Assembly: GCA_012514555.1 (NCBI GenBank)
Contig: JAAZAB010000037.1
Span: forward strand, 1 to 38,877
Source: Lentisphaerota bacterium
GTDB lineage: Bacteria > Verrucomicrobiota > Kiritimatiellia > JAAZAB01
Direction: 5' to 3'
DNA: 38,877 nucleotides
Below, piece by piece: positions 5,740 through 38,877 of this stretch (within the stretch, counting starts at the first letter, position 1; the number at the start of each line of letters is the position of its first letter). The notes beneath the pieces are model-generated. The model saw only the letters and a program-made list of their open reading frames with translations, was not told the DNA's origin and searched no databases. The position numbers and the translations under genes are program-made.

Positions 5740-7629
5740 TCAGTTCATTCCGGGCGCCTGGATAACGTCAAGGTATTTTCTCCGGTACATCTGGCGCGCA
5801 TTCTCAAGGGGAAAGAAGCGCTGGCGGGTCTTTTCATCCATCACGGAGAAAGGATAGTTGACCAGGCCCTCCGGCACTTGCAGGTTTATCCCGTCGGGCG
5901 TGAAATCACGAATCGTTCCCGTGACGGGCTCGTCCTGGTCCTTGAGATGCAGGGTGATGGATTCGTCGGGCTTTGGTTTTTGCCCCTCGCAGTAGCTGAG
6001 TATCCTCTTGAAGGCGGGGGTGTTCTCGATATCGCTGGCGGTGGCATTGTCGGCGGCGCCGGCGGTTTCGTCCTCGGCGGGCTGGGGGATATCGTGCGGT
6101 ATGGGCGTTTCGGCTGGTTCCTCCGGCGTTTCAGCCTCTTCCGCCGCTTCCGGGACGTCGCCTGCCCCGGCTTCCCATTCGTCTTCCGCGTCCTCGGCCG
6201 GCTCGGGCTCCTCTTTCCGGGGGCTCTCCCCTTTTCCCGGCAGGAAGTCCAAGTTGGTGCGAACCTTCCTGATGAATTCTACCGCCCTTTCCCGCATCGG
6301 CGCCAGGACATCTATGTTCCTGACAAATTTCATGTACATCACGTATGAAATGAACACTATCAGCGTGATGGACAGGAGCATGCGGAGGGTTGCGACGAAG
6401 TTCGAAAAGAAACGGCTGATTCGAATCGAAAGATTTTGCCATTTCGAGAAGGGCTGCTCACCGGCGCGATCCGGCGCGGTTTTGCCGTCCCCGGCCGATT
6501 GCCCGGGCCGCGGCGAAACAGGACCGCTGGCTAGCGCGGCTTGCATGGGCGCGGGCGTTTTTGACTGCCCGGCCCGGGCCCCGTCGGTCGCCGGCAGCAC
6601 CTTGACCTTCATTTTCTTGGGCTGCGCCGCGTCGCTGGACGCCTGAGCGATTCGCGCTCTGGCGGCGGGCGCGGCGTGTTCGCGGAGCCGGTTCACGGAC
6701 ACCGTGCTTTCGCCCGGCTCGGGCGGTTCGCCGACAGGCATTGTGCCCATCTGGACCAGGTAAATATCCTCTATGACTTCGGTCCAGTCCCTGTGCCTGA
6801 GATCGGGCTTCTTCATCATCATTTTTTCGATCAGCCGGGTCATTCCGGCGCTGACCGCGGGGTTGATCTTCCGGGGGTCCTGCACGTAGTAGTTGATTTG
6901 AAGTTCCATGGCGGCCCCCCCGTCGGCCTCCATGAAAGGCAGGTGGCCGCTCACCATGTGGTACAGCGAGGCGCCAAGCGCGTAAATATCCGTCCGGCAA
7001 TCCATGGACGTTTCGCCGCGGACCTGTTCGGGAGCCATGTAGTTTGGCGTGCCCATGACCAGGGTCTCGCCGTCCTGGTTGGTATAGGTGTGAACATTGC
7101 CCACCGCTTGAGCCAGGCCGAGGTCCGTAAGCTTGATGGTGCCGTCGCCGTCCACCATTATGTTGTCAGGCTTGATGTCGCAGTGGACGATCCGGGACTT
7201 GTTCCACGCGTAGCGCAGCGCTTCCGCAACGCTCTGGGCGACAACCAGCGCGTCCGCGTCAGATATGTGGTTCTTGCGCCTGATCCAGTCCCCAACGCTG
7301 TAGCCGGAAATAAACTCCATGATGAAATAGTAGCGCGAATCGGTCTTGCTTTGCCCGAAATCGTAGACCTGGACGATGCCCTGGTGCTTGAGGCTTGCGG
7401 CGACCCGGGCCTCGAACATGAACTGCTTGATGTCCTCAACGCCGCGAGATAGGTTTGAGGATAAAACCTTTATGACCACGTCCCGGCCAAGGGACACCTG
7501 CTGCGCCTTCCACAGCGTCGACATGCCGCCCTGGCCCAGCTTTTCCCTGACGTCATAGCCGTCTATGGCGGGCGGAATGTCGCCGCCGGCGGCGCCGGCT
7601 TTTGTTGCGTTGATATCTGGATTGCTCAC
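5740..7629 (-). CDS. Transmembrane Ser/Thr protein kinase
   Basis: GQGGMSTLWKA, VVIKVL, VHCDIKPDNIM, LTDLGLAQ, GTPNYMAPEQ; TM TLRMLLSITLIVFISYVMYM; acidic Glu/Ala/Pro-rich extracytoplasmic linker. Confidence 0.93.
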   Translation of the reverse strand: MSNPDINATKAGAAGGDIPPAIDGYDVREKLGQGGMSTLWKAQQVSLGRDVVIKVLSSNLSRGVEDIKQFMFEARVAASLKHQGIVQVYDFGQSKTDSRYYFIMEFISGYSVGDWIRRKNHISDADALVVAQSVAEALRYAWNKSRIVHCDIKPDNIMVDGDGTIKLTDLGLAQAVGNVHTYTNQDGETLVMGTPNYMAPEQVRGETSMDCRTDIYALGASLYHMVSGHLPFMEADGGAAMELQINYYVQDPRKINPAVSAGMTRLIEKMMMKKPDLRHRDWTEVIEDIYLVQMGTMPVGEPPEPGESTVSVNRLREHAAPAARARIAQASSDAAQPKKMKVKVLPATDGARAGQSKTPAPMQAALASGPVSPRPGQSAGDGKTAPDRAGEQPFSKWQNLSIRISRFFSNFVATLRMLLSITLIVFISYVMYMKFVRNIDVLAPMRERAVEFIRKVRTNLDFLPGKGESPRKEEPEPAEDAEDEWEAGAGDVPEAAEEAETPEEPAETPIPHDIPQPAEDETAGAADNATASDIENTPAFKRILSYCEGQKPKPDESITLHLKDQDEPVTGTIRDFTPDGINLQVPEGLVNYPFSVMDEKTRQRFFPLENARQMYRRKYLDVIQAPGMN

Positions 7630-18786: not shown

Positions 18787-18947
18787 TGGAGATGTGGAGA
18801 AATGAGAGCTTGAGAATCATCCGGGGCATGATCCCGGTGACAATGCCGTATGGAAATGCCCTTGCCCCGCGCAAACAGGCGGACGGCAGCGCGGGAGAAC
18901 GCTTTGCCTCATCGCAGTCTTTGTCGTCCGCCGTCTGCGGAAAGCGA

Positions 18948-19082
18948 CTATTTCTGCTTTTTTATGAGCTCGTCTACCTTTTTCGAGAGTCTCGAAATCT
19001 GCATATTGATTCCGAGGAAGAGCATGAGCAGGAAAAGAACGGTGAACAGGTTGAAATCCGCTGTAATAATTGAACCTTGCAT
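18948..19082 (-). CDS. Small single-TM protein (44 aa) with basic C-terminal helix
   Basis: Strong RBS GAAAGGAGACTGT before ATG; MQGSIITADFNLFTVLFLLMLFLGINMQISRLSKKVDELIKKQK. Confidence 0.6.
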   Translation of the reverse strand: MQGSIITADFNLFTVLFLLMLFLGINMQISRLSKKVDELIKKQK

Positions 19083-19209
19083 ACAGTCTCCTTTCTCTAT
19101 GTATCCTGAAATGGAAACACCAATCAAGGGGAAACGCAAGAACTTTGTGGCAGAACTTTGTGAAAAAAACAGATGGAAAAGCGGGGCCGGATATGATGAT
19201 CTTTCACCC

Positions 19210-20565
19210 ATGCGCCGGACCTACAAATTGCACTTGATAATGCCTGCCACGGGCCCGCACGTTTACGAGTATGTGGAAAGCGTGACAATGCCGCCATTGA
19301 CGCTGCTGACGCTGGCGTCGCTCACGCCTCCGAACTATGACATCCGAATTCTCGACGAGGCCATCGAGCCGGTTCGCCCCGGGCCCTGCGATCTGGCGGC
19401 CATTTCCCTCATATACTTCACAGCGGCCAGGGCTTACAAGCTCGCCGACTGGTACCGCAGCCGTAATATCCCCGTGGTAATGGGCGGGCCCCATGCCACG
19501 CTTTGCCCTGGCGAGGTTGCCGGGCATTGCGACGCGCTCGCGATCGGAGAGGCCGATGAACTGTGGCCGGCCATACTCCGGGATTTCGAGCAGGGCCGGA
19601 TGTCAGGGGTCTACAGGGCCGAATCACCGCCCGACCTCACGCGCCTGCCGCCTCTCCGATACGATGTGATAGACAAGACGAGATATGACGTTCAGAACCT
19701 GGTTCAAACCGGCCGCGGCTGCCCTGTCGGCTGCGATTTCTGCGCCATTCCGGCGCTCAGCGGGCGGGCCGCACGCCACAAGACAGTTCCCCAGGTCATC
19801 CGCGAAATAGAGGATTCCATGCGCCTGGCCCGCGGGTTCTGGAGGCGGCTGGTCGTTTTTTCCGACGACAACCTCGTGAGCGACCTGCGCTTTGCGCGCG
19901 AGTTGTTCGAGGCGCTCATACCCCTGCGCATCTGGTGGGCGAGCCAGTGCTCGATCGCGATTGCCCTGAACGACTCGCTGCTGGATCTCGCGGTGAAAAG
20001 CGGATGCCGCGGGCTGTTCATCGGCTTTGAGACGCCCAACCAGGCCGCGCTCGATGGCGTGCACAAGGCATACTCGGCCGCGCGCTTCGGGGAGGCGATA
20101 TGCAAGCTCAGGGCGCGCGGCGTTTTCCTGCTGGGCTCGTTCCTTTTCGGACTCGACGGGGACACCCGGGATTCATTCCGGGCCACCGTCGAGTTCAGCC
20201 TTAAGAACAGGCTGGATTTCGTCAATTACCACATTGTGAGCCCGGCGCCGGGCACTCCCTTTTTCCGCAAGCTGGAGTCGGAGGGCCGCCTGCTGCACCG
20301 GCGTTGGGAGCACTACCAGGAAAACGCCGTGTTCCGGCCGTCAGGCATGACGGCGGACGAGCTTCAGCAAGGCCAGATTTGGGCGTACCGCGAGTTCTTC
20401 CGCGCGGGGAATATTATCCGGCGCGCGCTGGCGTACTGGCCGTCGGTTTTCCGCATGCTCCTGGTCTTTTTCGAAAGCCTGAGGGTCCGGCGGAAAATTT
20501 TTGCCGGCATCCGGAGCAAGGAACGGTTTCTTGCGCGGAGCCCCGGGAATGAGATTGGCCCGTAA
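19210..20565 (+). CDS. B12-binding-domain radical SAM protein
   Basis: N-term B12-binding-like (TLLTLASLTPPNYDIRILDEAIEP, VVMGGPHATLCPGEVAGHCDALAIGEADELWPAIL), GRGCPVGCDFC cluster motif; in-frame upstream ATG at 19099 also possible. Confidence 0.87.
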   Translation: MRRTYKLHLIMPATGPHVYEYVESVTMPPLTLLTLASLTPPNYDIRILDEAIEPVRPGPCDLAAISLIYFTAARAYKLADWYRSRNIPVVMGGPHATLCPGEVAGHCDALAIGEADELWPAILRDFEQGRMSGVYRAESPPDLTRLPPLRYDVIDKTRYDVQNLVQTGRGCPVGCDFCAIPALSGRAARHKTVPQVIREIEDSMRLARGFWRRLVVFSDDNLVSDLRFARELFEALIPLRIWWASQCSIAIALNDSLLDLAVKSGCRGLFIGFETPNQAALDGVHKAYSAARFGEAICKLRARGVFLLGSFLFGLDGDTRDSFRATVEFSLKNRLDFVNYHIVSPAPGTPFFRKLESEGRLLHRRWEHYQENAVFRPSGMTADELQQGQIWAYREFFRAGNIIRRALAYWPSVFRMLLVFFESLRVRRKIFAGIRSKERFLARSPGNEIGP

Positions 20566-26807: not shown

Positions 26808-27531
26808 AGGCCCTCTTTTTTTAACGCTCCTGGTCAAGCGGTTCTGGCCGGGCTGCCCCATACCCGTGGACCTGCTGTTCATGTGGCTTGCGGTTTTACT
26901 GGTCATGGTCTTTGCGCTGACCGCCGCAATCCGGTGCAGGCTCAAACCCGCCGGGGCTCAGAACGCTTTTGAAATGATTCTGGACGCGGTTTCCGACTTC
27001 ACCCTCAAGTTTATCGGCAAGGACGGCTTTCGCTTTCTGCCCCTGTTTTTCACGCTGTTCCTCGTGATCCTCTTCTCCAACCTGCTGGGGCTTATTCCCG
27101 GGTTCAAGTCGCCGACGGCTAACCTGAACATCAACGCCGGCATGGCGCTTGTCGTCGCGGTCTTTCCGCAGTACGTGGCCATACGGCATCGCGGCTTGCC
27201 GGGCTACCTTAAGAGCTTTTGCGGCCCGCCCTACTGGCTCGCGCCGCTGTTCATAATCATCCGCGTCATCGAGCAGCTTGCCCGGCCCCTGTCGCTGACC
27301 ATGCGCCTGTTCGGAAACATCATGGCCAAGGAGATTTTGCTTGGCATTCTGGTGTATTTGACGACAATATTCTTTTTCTCGAACGACATCGCATCCAGGC
27401 TTCTTTTCCCGGTGCCCTTCCTGATGCGGCCCCTGGTGATCCTGCTCGGTGTGCTGGTCAGCGTCATCCAGGCCCTTGTTTTCACCAGCCTCGCAATGAT
27501 CTATGTCGGCGAAGCGATCCACGAACACTAA
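26794..27531 (+). CDS. atpB: F0F1 ATP synthase subunit a
   Basis: [27 protein letters not shown] with essential Arg. Confidence 0.93.
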
Positions 27532-27548
27532 CAGAAGGAGATCGAAGT

Positions 27549-27917
27549 ATGGACATCACTTCCCTATCGGTGGTTGGCGCCGTTGTCAGTATCGCGATCA
27601 CGGGGACGGCGGCCGCCATCGCCCAGGGCCGCGCCGCGACCAGCGCGCTCGACGGCATTGCCCGGCAGCCGGAAGCGTCCGGACCGATAGGCACCAACCT
27701 GATCCTGGGCCTGGCTTTCATCGAATCCATAGCGATCTACGCGCTGGTGATCTCGCTGATACTGATATTCGCCAATCCGTTCACAAAAACTTCCCAGAGC
27801 CTGGAAGAGAGCAAGGCGAAGCTTGAGATGATCCAAATCGAAACGCAGGCGATGGAAGCCCAGTCCAGGCTCGATGCCCTGAAGCAGGCCCGGCCGCAGG
27901 CTGAAACGGCGAAATGA
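27549..27917 (+). CDS. atpE: F0F1 ATP synthase subunit c with a 44-aa C-terminal extension
   Basis: [21 protein letters not shown]...[22 protein letters not shown] followed by [44 protein letters not shown]. Confidence 0.93.
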
Positions 27918-28408
27918 TAGACTTCGACCTGAAGCTGATCCTGGCCTCGGCAATCACGTTCCTGGTCGCGCTGGCCATTCTGTGGCGGCTCGCCTACAAG
28001 CCGCTGCTGGGCATGATGCGGGACCGCGCCGCCAGGATCGCTTCGGACATGGATGCGGCGGAAGCCGCGCGAAGGGAAGCAAAGGCCATTGAAAAGCGCC
28101 TGGAGGAGGAGATGGCGGGAATAAGGGCCAGGGCCGACGAAGTCCTGGGCGCCGCGGCCCGGGATGGCGAAAAAATGCGGCAGGCCATTCTTGACGAGGC
28201 CCGGGCGCAAAGCGCGGCCGCGCTCAAGCGCGCGCAGGAGATGGTAGAGATCGAAAAGGAGAAGGCGCGCGATGAACTCCGGGGCGAAGTGGCTGAGCTG
28301 TCCTACCTCATGGCGGAGCGGATTCTCGGCCAGGCCGTTGAGCGCGATCCGGGCATTGACGGGCGCCTTGCCGAACAGGCGGCGCGCGAAGCGGGGGTAA
28401 AACGCTGA
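27914..28408 (+). CDS. atpF: F0F1 ATP synthase subunit b
   Basis: N-term TM plus long charged helix; ATGA overlap with atpE. Confidence 0.9.
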
Positions 28409-28950
28409 TGCGCATGGACGCTCTGGCAAGACGATATGCGGGGGCGCTGCTCCAGGCGGCCGTTGACGCCGGCGCCGAGCGGGAGGTGCGCGAGGGCCTC
28501 GGGCTCGTCGCCCGGACCATCGCGGACCGCCCTGAACTGGGCGCGTTTCTGCGCAGTCCCTGCCACGGCCCCGCGCTCAAGCTCGCGGTCATGTCGGACC
28601 TGTTTGGCGCGCGCGTCTGCGCAACCGCCATGTCCGGGGTCCGGCTTATTCTCGCCCGCGGCCGGGAGCGTATGATTCAGGATATCGCCCGGGCTTACGG
28701 CGAACTGCTCGACCGGCGGGAGAACCGGGTTCGGGTCAGCCTTGTTTCCGCGCGGCCGCTCGGGCCGGACTGCATCGGGCGGGTCAGGGCGCTGCTCGCG
28801 GAGCGCCTTGACATGGAGGTCGCCATGGATGTGGCAACCAGTCCCGGCCTGATAGGAGGCTGCGTGATCAGCATGGGCGGCCGCGCGCTGGACAATAGCC
28901 TGCGCGGCAGGCTTTTGGATATCAGGGACAGAATGATGAAATCCGGCTAG
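28408..28950 (+). CDS. atpH: F0F1 ATP synthase subunit delta
   Basis: [13 protein letters not shown]...; C-term [22 protein letters not shown]; position in operon. Confidence 0.9.
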
Positions 28951-28964
28951 CAGGGGTGTCCAAC

Positions 28965-30482
28965 ATGGCGGAGCATCAGACAATATCGGCCGATGAAGTG
29001 ACGTCGGTTCTGCGCAGGCAGATCGAATCTTTCACGGCCCGCATCGAAACGCGGGAGATCGGAACCGTCCTGCAGGTCGGGGACGGCATCGCCCGCATTT
29101 ACGGCCTGCCTCAAGCCATGTCCGGGGAGCTGCTGGAATTCCCGAACACGGTGTTCGGCATGGCCATGAACCTCGAGTCGGACATGATCGGGGCCATCAT
29201 CATGGGCGACGACACGCTCATCAAGGAGGGCGACAAGGTGCTCTGCACGGGGCGCGTCATGGAAGTCCCGGTCGGCGACGAGATGATCGGCAGGGTGGTG
29301 AACGCGCTGGGCAGCCCGATTGACGGCAAGGGCCCGATCGCCACCGCGAAAACCCGGCCGCTTGAGCATTCCGCCCCGTCGGTCATCGAGCGCCAGTCGG
29401 TGCGCCAGCCGCTTCAGACGGGGATAAAGGCGATTGACGCCATGGTGCCGATCGGCCGGGGCCAGCGCGAGCTCATAATCGGCGACCGCCACACCGGAAA
29501 GACGGCCATAGCCATCGACACGATTATCAACCAGAAAGACACGGGCGTTGTCTGCGTGTACGTGGCCATCGGCCAGAAGCGCTCGACGGTCGCGCGTGTC
29601 ATACAGACGCTAACCGAGCACGGCGCGATGAAGCATTCCATCGTCGTGTCCGCGTCGGCCTCCGACGCCGCCCCGCTCCAGTACATCGCGCCGTACACCG
29701 GGTGCGCCATAGCCGAGGAGTTCATGGATTCCGGGCGGCACGCGCTCATTGTCTATGACGACCTCTCGAAGCACGCGGTGGCCTACCGCGAAATCTCCCT
29801 GCTGCTGCGCCGACCCCCGGGCAGGGAGGCCTATCCCGGGGACGTGTTCTACCTTCACTCGCGCCTGCTCGAGCGCGCGGCAAAGCTGTCCGAGGCGCGC
29901 GGAGGCGGCAGCCTCACGGCGCTTCCGATCATCGAAACGCAGGCGGGCGACATTTCGGCTTTCATTCCCACCAACGTGATATCGATCACTGACGGCCAGA
30001 TATTCCTCGAACTGAGCCTGTTCAACGCCGGAATGCGGCCGGCGATAAACAGCGGACTCTCGGTGTCGCGCGTGGGCGGGAATGCCCAGACCAAGGCCAT
30101 GAAGAAGGTCGCGGGCCGCCTGCGCCTGGACCTGGCGCAGTACAGGGAGCTCCTGTCCTTTTCCCAGCTTTCCTCGGACCTGGATGACGCGACGAAAACC
30201 ATGCTCGCCCGCGGCGCGCGGCTTTCCGAGATTTTGAAGCAGGAGCAATGCAGGCCCATGCCGGTTGAGCAGCAGGCGATGATCATCTATTCTGCCGTGG
30301 GCGGGTTGCTCGACGAGGTGCCCCTGGACAAGCTGCGGGCCTTCGAGGCGGAGTTCCTCGCGTTCATGGGCAAGTCTTTCCCGGCCGTCGGTGAAAGTAT
30401 CCGCGAAAAAGGCGTGCTTGGCGAGGACCAGGAAAAGGCCCTTAAAGCCGCGATGGAACAGTTCAAGACCACATTTGGATGA
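28965..30482 (+). CDS. atpA: F0F1 ATP synthase subunit alpha
   Basis: [35 protein letters not shown], family-wide similarity. Confidence 0.96.
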
Positions 30483-30489
30483 GGCTGCC

Positions 30490-33015
<2,526 letters not shown>

Positions 33016-35754: not shown

Positions 35755-36864
35755 TCAAGTCGCGGCATTCACATACCGGCGCTCCGGCCGCGGACCGATC
35801 GCGCAGAGTATGTCGTATTCGTGGGTGCCCTTGATCCGCGCCCATTCCCCGATGGTGATGCCGTCGCCGAGGCAGGTTGCCGTGTCCCAGACGCGGGCCC
35901 CGGGCGCGTTTTCGAGGTTCACCGTCGTGTAGTCCATTGACACGCGGCCGATCACGGGGCAGCGCCGGCCTCCGATCAGCACGGCGCCGCGGTTGGACAG
36001 GGCCAGGGGAAGCCCGTCGGCGTATCCGATCGAGAGCGTTCCAACCCTGGCCGGCTTTTCAAGGCGATGCGTGCGGTTATACCCGATCGTGGCGCCTGCC
36101 GGCAATTCGCGGATGCCGATCAGCCGGGCCATGAGCCGCACCGCGGGCTCGAGCGCGCCGGCTTCGCAGCCCCCGCCGCCCAGGGCGCCGTAGAGGTTGA
36201 TGGCCGTCCGCGCCAGGTTGAACGGGGCTTTGTACGCGGCGGCGATGTTGTTTATGCCGTCGCTGTTCGCAATGTGGCGCCAGGCGAAGGAGATGCCGCG
36301 CTTTTCCAGGCGCGCAAGGAGCCCGGAAAGGAGTTCTACCTGGCTCTCGGAAAAAGCCGTATCCTCGTTGGCGTGCGGAAAATGCGAGTATATCCCGAGG
36401 GGATTGAGCCCGGGCAGGGCGTGAATCCCCGCTATGATTCGCTCGGCGTCGCGGGCAAGAATGCCCTGCCGCCCCATGCCGGTGTCAACCAGGTAATGGC
36501 ACGCGACCGTTCGCTTCTGGCGTAGCGCCTCGGCGCTCAGCGCCCGCGCAATGCTCTCGTCCGTGATCGCCGCGACAAGCCCCGCGCGCACGACTTCCGC
36601 TATCTCGCCCTCGACGAGGCCGCCCATGATGTGGACCGGCAATCCCAGCTCCAAAAGGGGCAGCGCCTCCCGCACCTCGGCCACGCCAAACCCGTAGACG
36701 CCTTCCTGCTTGAGCGCGCGGGCTATCGGGAGCGCGCCGAGCCCGTAGGCGTCGTTTTTCAGGACGGCCAGGATGCGGCACGGCCGGATGCGGCCAGACA
36801 TTTTTGCGAAATTAGAACGGATGGCGGCCATGTTCACTTCAAGCCATGTGTGCCGGCTATCCAT
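35755..36864 (-). CDS. alr: Alanine racemase
   Basis: WLEVNMAAIRSNF, AVLKNDAYGLG, VDTGMGRQG, IGRVSMDYTTV. Confidence 0.95.
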   Translation of the reverse strand: MDSRHTWLEVNMAAIRSNFAKMSGRIRPCRILAVLKNDAYGLGALPIARALKQEGVYGFGVAEVREALPLLELGLPVHIMGGLVEGEIAEVVRAGLVAAITDESIARALSAEALRQKRTVACHYLVDTGMGRQGILARDAERIIAGIHALPGLNPLGIYSHFPHANEDTAFSESQVELLSGLLARLEKRGISFAWRHIANSDGINNIAAAYKAPFNLARTAINLYGALGGGGCEAGALEPAVRLMARLIGIRELPAGATIGYNRTHRLEKPARVGTLSIGYADGLPLALSNRGAVLIGGRRCPVIGRVSMDYTTVNLENAPGARVWDTATCLGDGITIGEWARIKGTHEYDILCAIGPRPERRYVNAAT

Positions 36865-37727
36865 TATCGTTTAATCCTTCCCCTTTGCCGGTGTTGTTCC
36901 CGCTGAAAGTCAATCGTCATTCCCGGGCGAGCGGCTTCGCATTCCGGGAAAACCCGCTTTGCCGCGGCGGCAATCCTGGCGATTTGCGCGTCGGTCCGGA
37001 GCCGGTCGTGGTGCGTAAGGATCAGGCGCTTTACGCCCGCCGCCCGCGCCGCTTTCGCGGCTTCAGGCCAGGTGCTATGGCCCCAGCCCCTGTGGGCCGG
37101 TTATTCGGACGGCAGGTAGTGGGCGTCGGCCACAAGCACGTCCGCGTTCGCCGCAAAAGCGAAAAAGCGCCGGTCCATCTCCGGGTTGCCGTGCTCGCGG
37201 TCCGTCGCCACCACCACGGAGCCGCATTCCGTGTCGAAGCGGTATGCAACGCACGATTGGGGATGCAGGACCGGGCACCAGCCGATGCGCACTCCGTAGC
37301 GCCGCAGCGCACATGGCGCCGCCGCGCTGCCCGGCAGGCGCTCGTAAGTCACCGCGGCATCGGCCCCGGCGATCGGCACGGGCCACAAGGGCGGCCCGAA
37401 CACCCGCGAAAGGGCGCTTTCCGCCTCCGGCCCAGCCGCGGCGGAAAGGATGCGGATCCTGAACCTGCGCTGGTATATCGGCGAGAAGCAGGGCAGCCCC
37501 ATGACGTGATCCAGGTGCCAGTGCGTGAAAAGAAGGGTGATGTCCGGGGGCGACGGCCTGCGCATCAGCGCGTCGGCCAGGCCCAGGATGCCCGTTCCCG
37601 CGTCCACGATCAGAAGGCCCCGCGGCGTTTCAAGGCTGAAGCAGGTCGTTTCGGCGCCATACCTCGCGTGAGCGCGGCCGCTGGCCGACATGCTGCCGCG
37701 GGCGCCGTGGATGGTAAATCGGTTCAT
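36864..37727 (-). pseudogene. MBL-fold metallo-hydrolase interrupted by an in-frame TAA (37101-37103); intact ORF part is 37101-37727
   Basis: FTHWHLDH motif; same frame continues past TAA as PAHRGWGHSTWPEAAKAARAAGVKRLILTHHDRLRTDAQIARIAAAAKRVFPECEAARPGMTIDFQRE... to a TAA overlapping the alr ATG. Confidence 0.82.
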
Positions 37728-37788
37728 GGCCCGTCTTCAGCCTTCCCATCGACTGCCGGATGACTCCGGTTCCTTTCAAAAAGCCTTG

Positions 37789-37919: not shown

Positions 37920-38877
37920 ATGAGGTTTGTTCGGAGCTTTGGAAAGTCATTCGCGCGCGCTGCGTTTGCATGCATCGTAATCCTGCCCAATGCTTCCCTG
38001 GGCGGCGCCCGGCCACAGGGGGCCACAAACACGATATCGCTGGCCGCAATCACGGACAGGACCAATGCGCTGTACAGGTGCGGCGAGCGCGCGGAGTTCA
38101 CCGTCACCGTGGCCGGCCTCGCTAACCTGGTCGCAACCGGGCGGGCGGAGAGAATCAATATCCATCTCTCCCTTGACGGGGGAAAAACCATAGCGGACAT
38201 GGAGCTGCCGGTAAAAGACAGCATTACCGTGACTAACACGCTTGATGAGCCCGGCTTTCTGCGATGCGACGCCGTGTATAACGCCGACGGCAAAAAATAC
38301 CGGGCATGCGCGGCGGCGGGATTCGAGCCAGAGCGGATAAAGTCGGCGGCCGTGATGCCGGACGACCTGGATTCGTTCTGGAATGACGGCATCAGGAAGC
38401 TGGGGAAAATGCCGCTGGATGCGAAGATGGAATCCATTCCGGAATACTCGGACGACGGCGCGCAATCCTTCAAGATCAGCCTTCAGAACGTGGACGGTTC
38501 GCGGATATACGCCTATCTCGGGATTCCGGAGAAGCGGCCGCCGCCATTTCCCGTTCATGTCCTTATTCCCGGTGCCGGAGTGGGGCCAAAATCGGCGCAG
38601 TGGGTCAAGGACTGGGCGGGGAAGGGGGCGATTGCCCTGAATGTGGCGGTGCATTCCTTCGACATCGGCCTCCCTCGCGGTGAGATAGACGAAAAATACG
38701 GGCATTTCTGTCGAATGGAAACGTACGCAGGGGTCACCAACCGCGAGGCTTACATTTTCCGCCGTTCGATCCTGGGGATTGACAGGTTCATCAAGTACGC
38801 GGCCGCCCGGCCCGATTTTGACGGGCGGCATATCGTTGTGGGCGGCAGCAGCCAGGGCGGGGGGCTGGCGCTGATCA
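37920..38877 (+). CDS. Acetyl xylan esterase-like (AXE1 family) alpha/beta hydrolase, secreted; 3' end outside window
   Basis: Signal-like N-term MRFVRSFGKSFARAAFACIVILPNASLGG; VMPDDLDSFWNDGIRKL; VHVLIPGAGVGPKS; nucleophile elbow GGSSQGGGLAL; frame open to window end. Confidence 0.85.
   Translation, partial: MRFVRSFGKSFARAAFACIVILPNASLGGARPQGATNTISLAAITDRTNALYRCGERAEFTVTVAGLANLVATGRAERINIHLSLDGGKTIADMELPVKDSITVTNTLDEPGFLRCDAVYNADGKKYRACAAAGFEPERIKSAAVMPDDLDSFWNDGIRKLGKMPLDAKMESIPEYSDDGAQSFKISLQNVDGSRIYAYLGIPEKRPPPFPVHVLIPGAGVGPKSAQWVKDWAGKGAIALNVAVHSFDIGLPRGEIDEKYGHFCRMETYAGVTNREAYIFRRSILGIDRFIKYAAARPDFDGRHIVVGGSSQGGGLALI

Follow-up and report, generated by a model that had tools for sequence, protein, structure and literature searches.

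The window analysed here (the whole stretch of 38,877 nucleotides) carries on its minus strand an MBL-fold hydrolase frame and, overlapping its end, alr, the gene for alanine racemase (Table 1). A single premature stop breaks this ordinary MBL-fold hydrolase gene. The translation around it reads ...VLVADAHYLPSE-stop-PAHRGWGHSTWPEAAKAARAAGVKRLILTHHDRLRTD..., and the peptides encoded beyond residue 209 include GWGHSTWPEAAK and LILTHHDR. When the TAA is read as tyrosine, the frame matches PF12706 over residues 40–240, spanning the stop, with E = 6e-15 and 55.7 bits; the gathering cutoff of 27 bits is passed by this read-through frame and also by the 208-residue product alone (28.0 bits). At the local base composition, 78 codons without a stop are no surprise on their own (P = 0.14); the case for a broken gene goes beyond chance because homology, both to PF12706 and to relatives, continues on either side of the stop. 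An in-frame TAA in an MBL-fold hydrolase gene, with a frame that runs on to a second TAA overlapping the alr ATG, had been proposed in a preliminary description of this DNA, and both elements are borne out at the positions given in Table 1.

Table 1. Features of the hydrolase–alr locus, in positions of the window.
Feature	Position	Strand	Details and evidence
MBL-fold hydrolase frame (PF12706)	37727..36864	minus	287 codons including the internal TAA
N-terminal 208 codons of the hydrolase	37104..37727	minus	translation; PF12706, 28 bits alone; invariant alignment columns
Premature in-frame TAA (codon 209)	37103..37101	minus	sequence; sense codon in 32/32 relatives; alignment
78 sense codons past the premature stop, plus terminal TAA	36864..37100	minus	translation; 17.7 bits to the end of PF12706; alignment
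Terminal TAA of the hydrolase frame	36866..36864	minus	
TAATG overlap of hydrolase terminal stop and alr ATG (36864..36862)	36862..36866	minus	sequence
alr, alanine racemase, intact	35755..36864	minus	369 aa; TIGR00492, 245.8 bits (cutoff 168)
Purine-rich AAGGGGAAGGA just upstream of the alr ATG	36870..36884 (approximate)	minus	sequence, by eye

An antisense open reading frame of 305 aa (36846..37763, plus strand) covers the same stretch; it was rejected as a real gene, having no Pfam match, whereas the minus-strand frame has homologues throughout. An AXE1-type acetyl xylan esterase gene (37920–38877, plus strand) lies divergently from the hydrolase and runs off the end of the contig. Elsewhere in the window, an F-type ATP synthase cluster (c, b, delta, alpha, gamma, beta; 27219–32765, plus strand) has all its frames intact.

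The stop site in relatives and the residues beyond it

We aligned the hydrolase with 32 relatives (about 32–50% identity), some belonging to the same class and some not; the records L024 and L034 among them apparently represent one contig. All 32 read through the stop site and end some 55–80 residues later, at the usual end of the family. Not one of the aligned relatives ends at the site itself, whereas a normal family end there would, by the preliminary description, have refuted the idea of a broken gene. The locus thus shows what marks a nonsense pseudogene, an in-frame stop where orthologues have a sense codon, with the stop found in 0 of the 32. The aligned column holds Tyr in 24 relatives, Ile in 5, and Gln, Leu and Ser in 1 each, which makes Tyr the probable original residue, in keeping with the suggested origin of the TAA from TAC or TAT. 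The suggested family pattern EYPxxxGWGHST stands for its Tyr, but Pro rarely comes next, and EYP is not the family norm.

When 346 genomes of the class were searched with a profile, 88 matches scored strongly (above 260 bits), and an interior stop is present in only one of them, the hydrolase studied here. A stop was flagged in four of the 88 rows, those of its own genome and of genomes G003, G006 and G320; in the latter three the flags reflect terminal stops or a frame that is open across the aligned region. Among these 88 matches, no other lineage showed a stop recurring at this site. The relatives compared include no genome of the same genus, and scanning genome contigs with the hydrolase returned only distant relatives, at 33–39% identity; its own genome yielded no close paralogue. 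A match to the hydrolase is missing in 20 of 58 relatives (15 of 46 when only good-quality genomes are counted), so the gene is dispensable in the group.

In enzymes of the YhfI/ELAC/RNase Z fold, two metals are held by an HxHxDH motif together with another His, one Asp and a C-terminal His. The N-terminal part of the frame keeps HWHLDH (residues 69–74), H155 and D176, and the part beyond the stop holds GWGHST (214–219), LTHHD with H239, and D246. There are 24 invariant alignment columns, and G214, W215, G216, H217, H239 and D246 all lie past the stop. A confident structural model of the read-through frame (mean pLDDT 91.6, pTM 0.91) places H239 at the end of a strand (234–239), where it is predicted to take the place of the last metal-ligand His. 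The full ligand set would therefore be complete only if the stop were read through, as H239 is absent from the encoded 208-residue product, which is missing the final strands and helices as well. We infer that this product is very likely inactive, because six invariant residues, among them H239 and those of GWGH, fall beyond the stop. The conserved histidines of GWGHST and LTHHD had been placed downstream in the preliminary description, and H217 and H239 are indeed invariant and past the stop; the loss of the last predicted ligand is also in line with its expectation that truncation would likely abolish metal binding. No in-frame ATG, GTG or TTG occurs between the stop and codon 270, which makes a separately started C-terminal piece unlikely and rules out internal re-initiation before that codon.

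Family and likely function of the intact gene

Our best guess is that the intact gene encodes a phosphodiesterase-like MBL hydrolase related to YhfI, Rv1339 and CpdA, with an RNase Z-like GWGHST. The solved structures closest to the read-through model are those of Bacillus subtilis YhfI, the Bacillus anthracis ELAC homologue and RNase Z. YhfI (6KNS) is the top structural match (E = 1.6e-16, TM 0.70/0.80), alike in fold and length, with a sequence identity of about 20%. YhfI, mycobacterial Rv1339 and Corynebacterium glutamicum CpdA are atypical class-II cyclic-nucleotide phosphodiesterases that share the PF12706 MBL fold, and their [T/S]HxHxDH signature (PMC9293780) is present here as THWHLDH. 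The GWGHST motif recalls RNase Z instead, whereas YhfI and BA1088 carry a plain GH at that place; unlike the YhfI-type phosphodiesterases, moreover, the copy studied here is cut by a stop.

Profile models point in both directions. The cyclic nucleotide-degrading phosphodiesterase model NF041851 aligns with residues 3–250 at 56.4 bits against a cutoff of 400. Residues 187–272 match RNase Z models, and the fold resembles that of RNase Z/ELAC (TIGR02651, 1Y44, 2CBN), but TIGR02651 scores 64.4 bits against a cutoff of 293 and the N-terminal half fits less well. Because both curated cutoffs are far from being reached, neither the cyclic-nucleotide phosphodiesterase name nor the RNase Z name should be assigned.

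The junction with alr

The preliminary description had called the TAATG junction with alr ancestral. Its presence is plain from the sequence; its ancestry is unsupported, as alr lies beside the hydrolase in no relative checked (flanks of up to 1.5 kb were included, and more for L032–L034). In every relative where both were located, the two genes are on different contigs, although in G001 alr sits at a contig start, where adjacency in some other arrangement is possible. In G001 and G003, the two members of the same family whose loci were read, the hydrolase is followed instead by a Ser/Thr protein kinase gene. An ancestral hydrolase–alr operon was rejected on these grounds, and the junction is better seen as particular to this lineage. 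The hydrolase frame overruns the usual family end by about 13 codons (36864–36905) to reach the TAATG, and the third positions of these extra codons look non-coding (6 of 13 are G or C).

The kinase directly 3' of the hydrolase in G001 (L006) and G003 (L003, L111) carries a GGMGAVY P-loop, and these arrangements hint at an older hydrolase–kinase neighbourhood that was lost here; a Pkinase gene does occur in the window, far from the hydrolase (5743–7629, minus strand). The alr gene itself has 62% identity to that of G001, 45–48% to those of the more distant G010 and G017, and 31–38% to those of other family members, a pattern suggestive of two lineages of alr or of transfer inside the group. 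The purine-rich stretch upstream of the alr ATG is plausibly the ribosome-binding site of alr itself.

Nonsense mutation, assembly error or readthrough

The part of the gene beyond the stop bears on the age of the stop. The identity of the C-terminal part to the relatives minus that of the N-terminal part is +0.059, among the highest of the 32 rows, and on a fixed tree the C/N ratio of the terminal branch is 0.85, 23rd of 32 and within the ordinary range. G or C occupies 49 of 65 third codon positions past the stop (75%; the last 13, non-conserved codons are left out of this count) versus 176 of 208 before it (85%; p = 0.10). By these measures the downstream part has not decayed, and its relative conservation is, if anything, higher than that of the N-terminal part. 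The stop is therefore recent, or unreal, or read through.

The preliminary description had raised stop readthrough next to a recent mutation and an assembly error, and for readthrough we find no support. If the TAA were subject to programmed or leaky readthrough, some full-length enzyme would be made; this would account for codons past the stop that look constrained, and the nucleotide following the stop is C rather than the U of a strong terminator. However, of the bacterial stop codons UAA is the least prone to leak (PMC5289835), and no relative has a stop at the site, which leaves programmed readthrough without positive support. Recoding is recognised by a stop conserved in orthologues or by a codon recoded genome-wide, and here the stop is unshared and internal stops number 0 in 97 conserved domains of the genome, sampled from four large families (41 ABC transporters, 36 radical SAM proteins, 18 response regulators and 2 sulfatases). 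A tRNA with a UUA anticodon is likewise lacking among the 26 typed of 27 tRNA loci in this genome (about 88% complete), and peptide release factor genes are present. We accordingly regard readthrough of this kind as very unlikely, and the narrower proposition, that a genuine TAA permits functional levels of readthrough in the lineage and so yields full-length hydrolase, as more improbable still. Reassignment of TAA to an amino acid throughout the organism has in its favour only the rarity of TAA as a terminator, which ends 1 of the 24 genes in the window that match a family, a rarity expected at high G+C. TAA itself terminates both the hydrolase frame and a radical SAM gene (18850–20565), no UUA tRNA was found among those typed, and the count of internal stops effectively refutes reassignment, to which we assign a negligible probability. 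A real shortened or split gene, in which the 208-residue product works or the enzyme works in two pieces, could draw on the HxHxDH motif, H155 and D176 kept upstream of the stop, but six invariant residues sit in the missing part, a second piece has no start codon within reach, and the partial family matches checked in G015, G141 and G306 end at contig ends and so set no precedent; we consider a functional short or split form highly implausible.

The choice accordingly narrows, as the preliminary description had anticipated, to a recent nonsense mutation or an assembly error, a framing supported by a stop that is unique among relatives and a downstream part free of decay. An assembly or consensus artefact (a base-calling or low-coverage error, or the allele of a minor strain in a mixed consensus) would leave the gene intact in the organism. 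One base would be enough, the undecayed remainder of the gene is expected equally under such an error, and the locus lies on a 38.9-kb contig of a draft genome that is split into 571 contigs and is 88% complete. Low coverage or quality is well documented to give spurious internal stops in assemblies, in a study whose scope did not extend to metagenome-assembled genomes (PMC11017572). Against this, the 0 of 97 conserved domains with an internal stop amounts to no genome-wide excess, and the consensus is thus not of poor quality overall. We regard an artefact as a substantial possibility, though one that falls short of being probable.

On balance we favour, as the probable reading, a real and recent nonsense allele in a dispensable hydrolase gene; that the base is truly in the DNA is, like the inactivity of the product, something we infer. 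We envision that a recent single-base mutation in this chromosomal MBL-fold hydrolase gene would stop translation at codon 209 and leave a non-functional product of 208 residues without H239; with no start codon nearby, the C-terminal part would not be re-initiated. The downstream alr would keep its own purine-rich ribosome-binding stretch and would still be made. The case resembles bacterial nonsense pseudogenes, true or spurious (PMC11017572), in having one in-frame stop in a well-preserved gene; only the gene is new.

The finding is an ordinary one, and nothing indicates unusual biology. For annotation, the frame should be recorded with its internal stop rather than as a 208-residue protein, and listing the enzyme among the functions of this genome should wait for confirmation of the sequence by reads. 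A real stop would add one more case of the recent loss of a dispensable MBL-fold hydrolase.
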